A stretch of DNA of 64,000 nucleotides from assembly GCA_007694905.1 (NCBI GenBank), contig REEU01000186.1, forward strand, positions 1 through 64,000, written 5' to 3'. The position numbers were made by a program, and so were the translations under genes. Each line of letters begins with the position of its first letter. Within the stretch, counting starts at the first letter, position 1. The notes below the pieces were generated by a model. It worked only from the letters and a program-made list of their open reading frames with translations. It had not been told where the DNA came from and did no database searches. This document shows, piece by piece, positions 19,665-23,606 of this stretch. The DNA comes from Gammaproteobacteria bacterium. Its GTDB lineage: Bacteria > Pseudomonadota > Gammaproteobacteria > Pseudomonadales > Azotimanducaceae.

Positions 19665-20426
19665 TTGGCAAGACGACCCGCCACGCCCGGCGCACGCAAG
19701 CGTCCCAAGACCCAACGCCGCCCCGCGCAGGCCACCGCCGTGGACGCGCTCCCTTATCTGCTGTCCGACTTCGAGCGCAGCGCCAAGGGACCTGGCGATG
19801 CGCCGCCGGATCAGGGCCGCGAAGTGGCCTTCGCAGGTCGCTCCAACGCCGGCAAGTCCAGCGTGCTGAATCGGCTCACCGGGCAGCGCAGTCTGGCGCG
19901 GACCAGCAAAACGCCGGGGCGGACCCAGCTGCTGAACTTCTTCCGCGTCAGCCCGCAGGCCTGCCTGGTGGACCTGCCGGGCTACGGCTACGCCAAAACC
20001 GACCGCAGCACGCGTGACGCGTGGCAGCAGCAGGTCGAAGGCTACCTGGCAAGCCGCCGGGCGCTAGTGGGCGTGGTCCTGGTCATGGATATTCGGCATC
20101 CGTTCCAGCCCTTCGACGAGCAGATGATCGGCTGGGCCCGCGCGGCGGACATGCCGCTGCTGGTGCTGCTGAACAAGGCCGACAAGCTCGGCTTCGGCGC
20201 CGCCAGCGCAGCCCTGCAGCAGGCCCGCCACCACCTTGCGGACATGCCGGCAGCCGAGCCGCTGCTGTTCAGCGCACTGCGAGGCCAAGGGAGCGAGCAA
20301 GCACTCACTATCCTGAGAAGCTGGCTGGGATTGGACGCATTAGAAGTGCCATCGGATGGGGGTGCCCCGGCCCCGCGGGGGGGCGGGACCGGGGCTGCCG
20401 GAGACGTCTCGGGGGGTGACGTCTGA
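19665..20426 (+). CDS. engB: Ribosome biogenesis GTPase EngB (YihA/YsxC)
   Basis: GTPase needed for late 50S subunit assembly. The G motifs are intact: GRSNAGKSS (residues 58-66), DLPGYG (103-108) and NKAD (170-173). The start is a TTG with GGGAGG 5 nt upstream; an ATG 4 bases earlier is out of frame. At 253 residues it is about 40 longer than E. coli EngB. The extra length is a basic N-terminus and a Gly/Ala/Pro-rich tail (from about 229) whose DNA overlaps the hairpins of an antisense RNA candidate. It converges with polA, as in E. coli and Pseudomonas. Confidence 0.94.
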   Translation: MARRPATPGARKRPKTQRRPAQATAVDALPYLLSDFERSAKGPGDAPPDQGREVAFAGRSNAGKSSVLNRLTGQRSLARTSKTPGRTQLLNFFRVSPQACLVDLPGYGYAKTDRSTRDAWQQQVEGYLASRRALVGVVLVMDIRHPFQPFDEQMIGWARAADMPLLVLLNKADKLGFGAASAALQQARHHLADMPAAEPLLFSALRGQGSEQALTILRSWLGLDALEVPSDGGAPAPRGGGTGAAGDVSGGDV

Positions 20427-20475
20427 CCGGATCATTGAGGATATCGGGGATGGGAAGGGGCAATGATCCGTCCGG
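20364..20475 (-). ncRNA. Probable sigma-E-driven small RNA at the Spot 42/ErsA locus
   Basis: This RNA would run on the polA strand from just after polA into the antisense of engB's 3' end. A GGAACTT/TCCTAA promoter lies immediately upstream. Three hairpins follow: a 10-bp perfect stem CGGATCATTG/CAATGATCCG (20470-20428) with a 23-nt pyrimidine-rich loop containing CCCCTTCCCATCCCC; a 7-bp stem (20424-20402) with loop ACCCCCCGA; and a 13-bp stem with one U-G pair (20395-20364) with loop CCCCCC. C-rich loops are what Hfq-type RNAs use to block ribosome-binding sites. Known context: E. coli spf and P. aeruginosa ErsA (sigma-22-dependent) sit between polA and engB. No U-run follows the last hairpin, so the 3' end is uncertain. 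Confidence 0.55.
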
Positions 20476-20481
20476 CATGTA

Positions 20482-20510
20482 TTAGGACTGCCCCCGCGAA
20501 AGAAAGTTCC
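20482..20510 (-). promoter_or_regulatory. Sigma-E/AlgU-type promoter downstream of polA
   Basis: GGAACTT at 20510-20504, a 16-nt spacer, then TCCTAA at 20487-20482. The -35 matches the sigma-E/AlgU consensus exactly and the -10 fits TCnnA. It starts 20 bases after the polA stop codon and points into the polA-engB gap, with the first RNA hairpin beginning about 12 nt past the -10. Confidence 0.6.
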
Positions 20511-20530: not shown

Positions 20531-23230
20531 TCAGTGCGCCTCGTCCCAGTTCGCGCCCACCCCGACATCCACCAGCAGCGGCACCGCCAACTCGGCCGCA
20601 GCCTGCATCCGCTCCCGCACGGTCTCTCCGAGGGCCTCCGCCGCGTCCTCGGCGACCTCGAATACCAGCTCATCGTGGACCTGCATGATCATGAGCGCGT
20701 CCGGACCCGTCGCCTGCATCCAACCGTCGAGATCGATCATGGCGCGCTTGATGATGTCCGCGGCACTGCCCTGCATGGGCGCGTTGATGGCAGTTCGTTC
20801 GGCGGCCTGCCGGCGCTGCTGGTTCTGGACCCGAATCTCCGGCAGGTACAGGCGGCGCCCGAACAGAGTTTCCACGTAGCCCTGCTCGCGAGCCTGGGCC
20901 CGGGTCCGGTCCATGTACTCGCGCACGCCCGGGTAGCGCTCGAAATAGCGGTCGATGTAGGCCTGGGCTTCGCCGCGGGCAATGCCGAGTTGGCGCGCGA
21001 GACCGAACGCGGACATCCCGTAGATGAGGCCGAAGTTGATGGCCTTCGCGTTACGACGCTGATCTGCGCTCACGGCCTCGAGATCAACGGCGAACACCTC
21101 CGCCGCAGTGGCCCGATGCACATCCAGGCCATCGTCGAACGCAGCAAGCAGGCCCGCATCTCCAGACAGGTGGGCCATGATCCGCAGCTCGATCTGAGAG
21201 TAGTCCGCCGCCAGCAGGACCCGCCCTTTCGGTGCCACGAAGGCCTGACGGATGCGCCGCCCCTGGGCGCTTCGAATGGGGATGTTCTGCAGGTTCGGCT
21301 CCGACGAGGACAGGCGCCCCGTGGCCGCGACCGCCTGATGGTAGGAGGTGTGGATGCGACCGGTATCCGGATCGATCTGCCGCGGCAGGGTGTCGGTGTA
21401 GGTGGACTTGAGCTTCGCAAGCGAGCGGTAGTCCATGATGATGCGGGGCAGCGGATAGTCGTGGGCCAGCTCGGCGAGCACCGGTTCGGCCGTGGACGGC
21501 GCGCCGCCCGGGGTCTTTCGGATCACTGGCAGCCCCAGCTTCTCGTAGAGGATCTGCTGCAGCTGGCGGGTGGAGCCGAGGTTGAACGCGCCACCCGCCT
21601 CCTCGTGGGCCTTCGTTTCGAGTTCCTGCATCAACTCAGCGAGCTCTGCGCTCTGCTGTTTCAGCAGGCGGGCATCCACCAGCGCGCCATTGCGCTCGAT
21701 CCGGGACAGGACAGGGACCAGCGGCATCTCGATTGCATCGAACACCCGAGCCAGGGTCGGTTGCGCTTCCAGCCGCGGCCACAGCAATTCGTGCAGCTGC
21801 AGCGTCACGTCGGCGTCCTCCGCGGCGTAGGGACCTGCCTGTTCCAGACCCACTTGGTCGAACGTGAGCTGCTTGGCGCCCTTGCCGGCGACGTCGGTGA
21901 AGGACGTCGTGCTGCGACCGAGGAACTTCAGCGCCATGTCGTCCATGTTATGGCGAGTACCGACGCTGTCGAGGACGTAGGACTCCAGCATGGTGTCGTA
22001 GCGAACCCCGACAAGCTCGATACCGACGCGTGCAAGCACGCTCATGTCGTACTTCAGATTTTGACCGATCTTCTCGATGGCCGGATCCTCGAGCAGCGGT
22101 TTGAGGGCATCGAGCACGGTGTTCGCCGGGAGCTGGTCGGGCGCGCCCACGTAGCGGTGACCGAAGGGCACGTAAGCGGCCTCGCCAGCGGCCACCGCGA
22201 ACGACACCCCCACGAGATCGGCCCGCATATAGTCGAGACTGGTGGTTTCCGTATCGAAGGCAAACCGGCCGGCCTCCCGCAGGCGCTGCACCCAGCGGTC
22301 GAGCTCCGCCTGTTCGAGGACGATGGCATAGTTCCGCTCCGGAGCACTCGCGTCCTCGCGCCCGTCCGCTTCCAGGGCGCTGCTCGCCTCGGTGATCCAG
22401 CCTTTGAACTCCAGATCCCGATAGTGGCCGAGCAGCTGCTCCTGATCCGGCTCCTGGGCCGCCAGCTCCTCGGGTCCGAAGCCCAGGTCCAGATCGCAGC
22501 GGATGGTGGCCAGCTCGCGATACAAGGGCAACTCATCAAGGGCGGCCCGCAGATTCTCCCCCAGCTTGCCTTTCACCGCGTCCGCCGCCGCCATCAGCGC
22601 GTCGAGATCGCCATGCTCAGTGAGCCACTTCGCCGCCGTCTTGGGGCCGACCTTCTCGACACCGGGGATGTTGTCGACGGTGTCGCCGGCCAGGGCCAGC
22701 AGGTCGATGATGCGCTCCGGGGGAACGCCGAATTTCTCCTGCACGGCGTCCGCGTCGAGCACAGTGTCCGTCATGGTGTTCACCAGCGTGATACGGTCGC
22801 TGACCAGCTGCGCCATGTCCTTGTCGCCGGTAGAGATCAGCACGGATTCCCCTCGCGCCTCCGCCTCGCGCGCCAGAGTGCCGATGACATCATCCGCCTC
22901 GACGCCGGGTTCGACGATCAGCGGCAGGCCCATGGCCCCCACGATTTCGTGAATGGGCTTGATCTGCGCCCGGAGCTCATCGGGCATGTCGGGACGGTTG
23001 GCCTTGTAGTTGGCATACAGCTCGTTGCGGAAGGTGTCGCCAGGCGGGTCGAAAACCACTGCAATGGGGCTGTCCGGATAATCCGCCATGAGCTTGCGCA
23101 GCATACCGATCACGCCCTTGACGGCGCCAGTGGGCCGGCCGTCGGACGTGGTCAGGGGCGGCAGCGCATGGTAGGCGCGGAACAGGTAGGACGATCCGTC
23201 CACGAGAATGAGCGGTTTGTCGTCCGCCAT
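20531..23230 (-). CDS. polA: DNA polymerase I
   Basis: Gap-filling and Okazaki-fragment polymerase, about 899 residues. The N-terminal 5' nuclease domain begins MADDKPLILVDGSSYLFRAYHALPP. The middle 3'-5' proofreading domain keeps its acidic residues (FDTETTSLDY, NLKYDMSVLA, YAAEDAD), so proofreading is probably active. The polymerase domain has motif A (LLAADYSQIELRIMAHLSGD), the O-helix (RRNAKAINFGLIYGMSAFGL) and motif C (MQVHDELVFE). The ATG at 23230 starts at the family's conserved N-terminus; the frame extends upstream but that part is antisense to the DUF2782 gene. Confidence 0.96.
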   Translation of the reverse strand: MADDKPLILVDGSSYLFRAYHALPPLTTSDGRPTGAVKGVIGMLRKLMADYPDSPIAVVFDPPGDTFRNELYANYKANRPDMPDELRAQIKPIHEIVGAMGLPLIVEPGVEADDVIGTLAREAEARGESVLISTGDKDMAQLVSDRITLVNTMTDTVLDADAVQEKFGVPPERIIDLLALAGDTVDNIPGVEKVGPKTAAKWLTEHGDLDALMAAADAVKGKLGENLRAALDELPLYRELATIRCDLDLGFGPEELAAQEPDQEQLLGHYRDLEFKGWITEASSALEADGREDASAPERNYAIVLEQAELDRWVQRLREAGRFAFDTETTSLDYMRADLVGVSFAVAAGEAAYVPFGHRYVGAPDQLPANTVLDALKPLLEDPAIEKIGQNLKYDMSVLARVGIELVGVRYDTMLESYVLDSVGTRHNMDDMALKFLGRSTTSFTDVAGKGAKQLTFDQVGLEQAGPYAAEDADVTLQLHELLWPRLEAQPTLARVFDAIEMPLVPVLSRIERNGALVDARLLKQQSAELAELMQELETKAHEEAGGAFNLGSTRQLQQILYEKLGLPVIRKTPGGAPSTAEPVLAELAHDYPLPRIIMDYRSLAKLKSTYTDTLPRQIDPDTGRIHTSYHQAVAATGRLSSSEPNLQNIPIRSAQGRRIRQAFVAPKGRVLLAADYSQIELRIMAHLSGDAGLLAAFDDGLDVHRATAAEVFAVDLEAVSADQRRNAKAINFGLIYGMSAFGLARQLGIARGEAQAYIDRYFERYPGVREYMDRTRAQAREQGYVETLFGRRLYLPEIRVQNQQRRQAAERTAINAPMQGSAADIIKRAMIDLDGWMQATGPDALMIMQVHDELVFEVAEDAAEALGETVRERMQAAAELAVPLLVDVGVGANWDEAH

Positions 23231-23306
23231 GATTTCAGCCACCCTATCTACCATTGCTCGAACGCTGGGCGGGACGCCGGAACGCACCGCCAGGGAGATC
23301 AACGTG

Positions 23307-23606
23307 ATGCACGCGTCACCACTACGCCACCTGCCGAGATGCCTGCTGTTCGCCCTGTTGCTGGCGTCATCGCCCCTGTTAGCGAGCGACGCGGTGATCG
23401 CGTCACGGGGACAGGACGTGACCATCATCGAGGGCCGGGAGCGGACCGTCTACGAGTACCGTCAGAACGGCATCCTGAGGATGATCCGGGTCGTCCCGGC
23501 CGTGGGCCGGCCCTACTATCTGGCCCCCGCAGATCCCACGCGAGGATACGGCAATCTGGAACAGGCGGACATGTTGATCCCGAAGTGGATCCTCGTCGAA
23601 TTCTGA
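23307..23606 (+). CDS. DUF2782 family protein, exported
   Basis: Small protein of about 99 residues with a signal peptide (HLPRCLLFALLLASSPLLASDA) and a compact domain: VTIIEGRERTVYEYRQNGILRMIRVVPAVGRPYYLAPAD. It matches the DUF2782 proteins found between polA and thrB in pseudomonads; the function is unknown. A GTG at 23304 with GGAG 6 nt upstream is an equally possible start. It is divergent from polA and ends 13 bases before thrB, so it probably shares thrB's transcript. Confidence 0.85.
   Translation: MHASPLRHLPRCLLFALLLASSPLLASDAVIASRGQDVTIIEGRERTVYEYRQNGILRMIRVVPAVGRPYYLAPADPTRGYGNLEQADMLIPKWILVEF

Follow-up and report, generated by a model that had tools for sequence, protein, structure and literature searches.

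The region behind polA in this genome raises a simple question: do the hairpins found there belong to a regulatory small RNA and, if so, is that RNA one of those already described? In the window, by which we mean the entire 64,000-nt stretch of DNA that was analysed, polA (DNA polymerase I; 20531..23428, minus strand; assigned from its ORF and from relatives) is the upstream neighbor of the candidate RNA on the same strand. The gene convergent to the RNA (ORF 19665..20426, plus strand) we take to be engB/yihA, encoding a GTP-binding protein, a name that is backed by the original prediction and by synteny. The original prediction had placed a sigma-E-driven small RNA with three C-rich hairpin loops at this site and likened it to Spot 42 and ErsA. 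What it had observed is confirmed, and its interpretation is partly supported by the comparisons described below.

Promoter and predicted RNA

The two promoter boxes that had been reported behind polA, GGAACTT and TCCTAA with a 16-nt spacer, are present at 20510-20482 on the minus strand, with TCCTAA (20487-20482) 16 nt after GGAACTT (20510-20504). We annotate them as a sigma-E/AlgU-type -35 element, GGAACTT (20504..20510, minus strand), and a -10 element, GTCCTAAT (20481..20488, minus strand), with 15 nt separating GGAACTT from GTC. Both boxes, including the exact -35 element, are kept in 6/6 genomes of the genus, and the sequence of the spacer varies. The window contains a single match to a loose form of the promoter pattern, compared with 0.18 expected, and 16/100 shuffles contain at least one, so a loose match alone is little proof. 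The strict form, GGAACTTT-N14-GTCNNAA, was searched for in five genus genomes (a set that excludes G005) and, as a sixth genome, G025; it is found as a single copy in each of the five genus genomes, always at the polA locus, and its backward control gave 0 occurrences in those five and 1 in G025. RpoE scores above its curated cut-off in five of the six genus genomes, the window's own among them, and G005 has weak matches only. Directly behind rpoE in five genus genomes (L217-L221, about 2091-2117 in the rpoE direction), there is another sigma-E-like site, GGAAC..-15-GTCNTA, which may serve the next gene as a promoter.

Assuming the usual sigma-E spacing, we place the 5’ end of the RNA near 20476, and with a 3’ end set by hairpin 3, the predicted sRNA would span 20364..20476 (minus strand), or about 113-120 nt. 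The three described hairpins (10, 7, and 13 bp) are found at 20470-20364 (minus strand), and the C-rich runs are present in all three loops as quoted. Hairpin 1 (20428..20470, minus strand, 10 bp) has a 23-nt C-rich loop, CCCCTTCCCATCCCCGATATCCT, hairpin 2 (20402..20424, minus strand, 7 bp) has the loop ACCCCCCGA, and hairpin 3 (20364..20395, minus strand, 13 bp) is terminator-like with the loop CCCCCC; each is supported by the fold and by covariation. By the folding model, the structure of 20350-20484 exceeds chance expectation (-65.3 kcal/mol, z = -6.5), and none of 200 dinucleotide shuffles folds as well.

Two features were omitted from the original prediction. One is an outer stem, which we call P0, that encloses hairpins 1 and 2 in the predicted fold. 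Its 5’ strand, TGCCGGA (20471..20477, minus strand), is seen in the folds and has compensatory changes at 3 of 7 pairs, and its 3’ strand (20396..20402, minus strand, with CCGGCA at 20401-20396) is likewise supported by fold and covariation. The U at 20402 belongs to P0 in the two-genus consensus and to hairpin 2 in the single-sequence fold. The other feature is the missing U-tract: hairpin 3 has none in the window genome, the tract is weak or absent across the genus, and in the sister genus g11 hairpin 3 is followed by T6-T7, forming an intrinsic terminator.

Conservation and covariation

A DNA search of 38 relatives found the RNA in 6/6 genomes of the genus (the window's own included) and in 0/32 others, and all six retain hairpin 1 including its C-rich loop. 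The sister genus g11 (five genomes) has the identical layout in different letters. We aligned the 11 sequences from these two genera (six and five, respectively; alignment A1), in which the four helices comprise 31 pairs, intact in 98.7% of cells. Conservation of the stems in relatives had been proposed as a check on the prediction, and it is borne out by compensatory changes at 10/31 pairs, spread over all four helices (3, 1, 2, and 4) and two genera. The covariation score of A1 is 0.368 versus 0.179 (sd 0.021) for shuffled alignments, with 0/500 as high, and it drops below 0.09 when the pairing partners are slid; since A1 consists of two groups of near-identical sequences, this is in effect one two-genus comparison. 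Two other measures separate the alignment from chance to a smaller degree, with 10 pairs changed on both sides versus 7.5 in shuffles (reached by 29/500), and a measure of further pair types that is reached by 468/500 shuffles.

Loci downstream of polA across the family

We searched 120 genomes of the GTDB family, found a PolA match in 113, and read the polA-downstream region in 110 of them, leaving out three (G180, G251, and G256). A PolA tree of 80 named and 30 family loci gave the family no firm position. On the sense strand, within 400 nt behind polA, a sigma-E-type promoter scoring 10 or 11 (maximum 11) is present at 45/110 loci, compared with 1/110 on the antisense strand and 13/1095 shuffles. 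The strong promoter is missing at the other 65/110 loci, so promoter loss or divergence is common. Three of the 45 promoter loci have no C-run behind the promoter: L112, which runs into N, and L115 and L116, which stop at contig edges.

Two designs recur at these loci. By sequence pattern, a two-hairpin RNA, CTTCGG..CCCC..CCGAAG, is found at 28 of the 110 in 35 copies, tandem in five loci and mostly accompanied downstream by a terminator hairpin that has a U-tract and a C-rich loop, and the window type is found at 11 further loci. A covariance model of the window type, R1, was built from A1, and matches 13/120 family genomes, all directly downstream of polA. Eleven of the 13 are training sequences, including the window RNA itself (20361-20477, 125 bits). 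The two outside the training set, G008 and G009, also fold with an outer stem enclosing hairpins 1 and 2, but their sigma-E-type promoter scores, 8 and 7, are not strong. For the two-hairpin RNAs, we built a second covariance model, R2, from 31 of the 35 copies, none of them window-type; its training alignment, A2, left out three incomplete copies and one divergent copy. None of 20 family loci has an Rfam match at the gathering threshold.

Comparison with described RNAs

The closest described RNA is sX13 (RF02232) of the Xanthomonadaceae, which the original prediction had missed. Like the window RNA, sX13 (115 nt) is downstream of polA and has three C-loop hairpins (4C/4C/5C), the third of them terminator-like. 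We noticed post hoc that TCCCATCCCC in the first loop is common to the window RNA and two of the three sX13 loci that we read. The sX13 Rfam model aligns to the window RNA over its full length with 15.4 bits (E 1.9), against a gathering threshold of 50. There are also clear differences. sX13 has a U-tract and the window RNA does not, no promoter score of at least 10 occurs at 3/3 sX13 loci whereas the window RNA has a strict sigma-E-type promoter, and the 5’ region of sX13 is unstructured as described in the accessible portion of PMC3771888, whereas the 5’ end of the window RNA is predicted to be paired in the outer stem. R2 matches sX13 in 3/3 loci above the Rfam cut-off (E 5e-6 to 6e-5), and on the sX13 loci R1 gives E-values of 0.011 (L251), 0.16 (L249), and 0.34 (L250).

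ErsA (Pseudomon-1, RF01719), from Pseudomonas, shares with the window RNA the polA-engB gap and C-rich stretches, and this likeness in place and promoter, as originally proposed, is supported by the sequence. ErsA is under sigma-22 (AlgU) control, and the window RNA has a sigma-E-type promoter by consensus only. The excerpted text of PMC8575079 describes three stem-loops and a U-rich unstructured domain in ErsA; the latter is absent from the sequence and fold of the window RNA, and the outer stem of the window RNA does not appear in the descriptions of ErsA to the extent that they were available. The ErsA Rfam model has no match to the window at its gathering threshold, nor at E <= 10 in 601 bases, and R2 matches the ErsA site in 5/5 loci confirmed by Rfam.

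Spot 42 (RF00021; loci from Enterobacteriaceae, Vibrionaceae, and Shewanella) also lies behind polA and has a terminator hairpin. Its Rfam model has no match in the window, so neither of the two covariance models suggested for testing the original prediction recognizes the RNA. In the one fold that we made (L069), Spot 42 has no C-rich loops of the window kind. On three Rfam-confirmed Spot 42 loci, R2 is weak (E 0.004, 0.32, and 0.96); these matches, at L069 2844-2925, L072 2929-2984, and L038 2951-3023, may reflect no more than a terminator behind polA.

Outside these polA-linked RNAs, 6C RNA (RF01066), known from Actinobacteria, has two hairpins with C6 loops like that of the window RNA, and its model gives 19.1 bits in the window compared with a gathering threshold of 47. 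By description alone, the Alpha-r7 sRNAs of Alphaproteobacteria are similar, with a polA locus, three stem-loops, and C-rich apical motifs in the account given in part of PMC3771888, and a further C-rich-loop sRNA is reported from Agrobacterium in the available text of PMC6234868. No Rfam family matches the window at its gathering threshold. Weak matches to mir-138, a snoRNA, and other families were set aside as chance. Because the Rfam models of sX13 and ErsA do not recognize it, we file the window RNA, on sequence grounds, as a polA-linked C-loop sRNA that is not a member of sX13 or ErsA.

Similar RNAs in other families

R2 has 29 matches on 80 named polA loci (E <= 0.01); every one is on the polA strand, and 28 fall no more than about 620 nt behind polA. 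They include the ErsA site in the five Rfam-confirmed loci, the ErsA-like place in other Pseudomonadaceae (named loci without an Rfam run), Salinisphaera shabanensis, a Methylothermaceae MAG, and others. R1 has five matches at E <= 1 on the same 80 loci (best 0.021), all behind polA. In 321 genomes of the class, R2 has 22 matches in 21 genomes, of which 13 have polA within 1.5 kb, four have engB alone, and five have neither; all 13 matches with E below 0.0015 are at polA/engB. Among the 17 class matches at polA/engB, the promoter score is, in raw counts, 10 or 11 at nine, 9 at four, and there is none at four. In 227 kb of sequence from 54 sources selected on other grounds, the window included, R2 gives a single match with E 0.06. 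When the 58 R2 matches are aligned, covariation is 0.582 versus 0.160 for shuffles, in an alignment that was fitted to the structure of the model. Calling the window RNA "its own variant", as had been done, is correct as regards the outer stem around hairpins 1 and 2, but the RNA does not stand alone: similar designs occupy the same place in other genera of its family and in other families of the class.

R1 was run on 30 sources, most of them chosen as R2 or sX13-model matches, with matches (E <= 1) in 23 of them and no match in the other seven. Outside the family it has 28 matches (E 0.005 to 0.6), all overlapping an R2 or sX13-model match on the same strand, which amount to 25 distinct places because L229 and L248 overlap. 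The sX13 Rfam model has matches in 7/145 genomes of the window's order, none above the cut-off, with four of the seven between polA and engB and three elsewhere. In the class it matches 15/321 genomes, three above the cut-off; we fetched nine of the 12 sub-threshold matches, of which five are at polA and four at neither polA nor engB, and one of the three that were not fetched (G330) overlaps the R2 match L227. We skipped a third model because MAFFT alignments of the class-wide three-hairpin RNAs (A3 and A4) lose the register of the stems; the consensus fold of A4 recovers hairpin 3 and misses hairpins 1 and 2.

We observed several variations in copy number and location. Salinisphaera shabanensis (L092) has three tandem copies, 39, 262, and 478 nt behind the polA stop, each with its own sigma-E-like promoter, and there are four-copy tandem arrays in G428 (L229, L248), G535 (L257), and G221 (L184, the last copy cut by the end of the stretch). 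At L227, L231, L235, and L244 (genomes G330, G266, G414, and G375, respectively), the RNA adjoins engB without polA nearby; polA is on another contig in G330 and G266 and 169 kb away in G414. From such loci, engB may be as faithful a neighbor of the RNA as polA. Similar three-hairpin C-loop RNAs are also seen at L245 and L240, with neither polA nor engB within 1.5 kb.

The window RNA has the traits proposed for this group, as it lies behind polA, has a sigma-E-type promoter, and forms hairpins with C-rich loops. R2 has no match to it at E <= 1 when the window is searched, and gives E 0.03-0.4 on some loci of its genus and the sister genus. Given that R2 misses it, the window type is linked to the others by position, promoter, layout, and weak R1 scores, and we consider it likely, not proven, that it belongs with the other polA-linked C-loop RNAs.

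Proposed mechanism and targets

The reading that we favor, with a probability of roughly 70%, is that the window encodes a trans-acting sRNA with its own sigma-E promoter, which would be induced by envelope stress and would use its C-rich loops to lower the translation of mRNAs with G-rich ribosome-binding sites. This reading draws on sequence features and on analogy with studied RNAs. The sRNA would be transcribed from the sigma-E (RpoE/AlgU-type) promoter downstream of polA, and would accumulate when envelope stress releases sigma-E. Its stable body would consist of the outer stem, which ties in the 5’ end and surrounds hairpins 1 and 2, followed by hairpin 3, with the three C-rich loops exposed. 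By analogy with sX13, these loops would base-pair with G-rich segments at, or close to, ribosome-binding sites, reducing translation. According to the sections of PMC3771888 available to us, sX13 has three C-rich loops, of which loops 2 and 3 matter most, represses mRNAs through their G-rich motifs independently of Hfq, and reaches higher levels at 37 degrees and in the presence of salt. ErsA, a sigma-22-driven RNA, has several mRNA targets and acts in part through Hfq, as far as the excerpts of PMC5819304 and PMC8575079 go; the two differ on the role of Hfq for one ErsA target.

Potential targets were sought as GGGAAGGGG-N3-9-ATG, the RBS-like complements of loop 1. There are 28 such sites in five genus genomes versus five for the backward control, and three more in G025, for a total of 31. 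We obtained loci for 30 of the 31 and compared ORFs of at least 30 aa. The ORFs starting at the sites show no similarity between loci, and no gene is common to the genomes, so target prediction from the C-rich seed of loop 1, another check proposed for the original prediction, pointed to no shared gene. Because sX13 represses hfq, we also inspected this gene, which is present in 6/6 genus genomes. There is no consistent G4 run in its ribosome-binding site in the six, and an AAGGGG in the coding start is dictated by the protein sequence and so proves nothing.

Alternative explanations

The hairpins could merely serve the polA mRNA, or both polA and engB, as a terminator or stabilizing 3’ structure, with no regulatory RNA at all. 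The position between convergent genes fits this, and hairpin 3 is terminator-like, with a T-tract in the sister genus. We nonetheless find this improbable. In each of five genus genomes, the sole strict sigma-E-type promoter is directed toward the hairpins; a terminator would not require the outer stem and the C-rich loops to be conserved to the extent observed; and experimentally studied sRNAs, namely ErsA and sX13, are among the look-alikes at the same spot (PMC3771888 and PMC5819304, in the portions available). An RNA controlling engB in cis is also conceivable, since in the window the final engB codons run antisense through hairpins 3 and 2, covering all of hairpin 3 and nearly the whole of hairpin 2; the frame ends there in a low-complexity tail, GGAPAPRGGGTGAAGDVSGGDV (20360-20426, plus strand). 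This overlap, which the original prediction had included in its account, is real in the window genome and is shared by some relatives only. The end of engB is readable in four genus genomes (all but G003 and G004), and the deep overlap from hairpin 3 into hairpin 2 is present in three of them (G000, G002, and G005), whereas in G001 engB terminates far from the RNA and in the sister genus g11 its stop is a few bases past hairpin 3. An overlap with this distribution is unlikely to be the purpose of the RNA, and the compensatory changes and C-loops argue for structure and for pairing in trans, so we consider antisense control of engB highly improbable.

A different doubt concerns relatives rather than function: the polA-linked C-loop RNAs of different families could be unrelated, having converged on the same locus and design. 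Sequences outside the stems and loops differ greatly, R2 does not recognize the window RNA, GC-rich hairpins with U-tracts are easy matches, and the available part of PMC3771888 has sX13 only in Xanthomonadaceae. The matches at neither polA nor engB (5/22 for R2 and 4/9 of the fetched sub-threshold class matches for the sX13 model) fit convergence as well. It is harder to explain by convergence that R2, a model from one family, has its best whole-genome matches at polA/engB of other families, that it matches both sX13 and ErsA, and that 227 kb from 54 sources chosen for unrelated purposes gave one match at E 0.06. On balance we regard convergence as unlikely, though less so than the two local explanations above.

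A possible shared origin and its significance

The alternative to convergence is that ErsA, sX13, and the window RNA may belong to one old family, as suggested by the same-spot look-alikes in other Gammaproteobacteria. In its full form, an idea to which we would give even odds, a single ancestral polA/engB-linked, sigma-E-driven C-loop sRNA gave rise to sX13, ErsA, and the window RNA. It would be widespread in Gammaproteobacteria as a general silencer, under envelope stress, of messages with G-rich starts. Several lineages would have amplified it into tandem copies, the window's genus and its neighbors would have redesigned it to include an outer stem, and Spot 42 could be a far-diverged member.

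ErsA and sX13 have been studied separately until now. In the open-licence literature, a body that most subscription papers fall outside of, we found no paper that mentions the two together, the sX13 paper (PMC3771888) alone pairs a small RNA with a position downstream of polA, and among the matches listed no title or abstract opening addresses a wider shared family. RNAs of similar design sit at the polA/engB locus in several families, and R1 and R2 provide two covariance models for testing the question of shared origin. If that origin is true, findings on ErsA and sX13 would inform each other, and a structured C-loop sRNA would join the envelope-stress response of many lineages.
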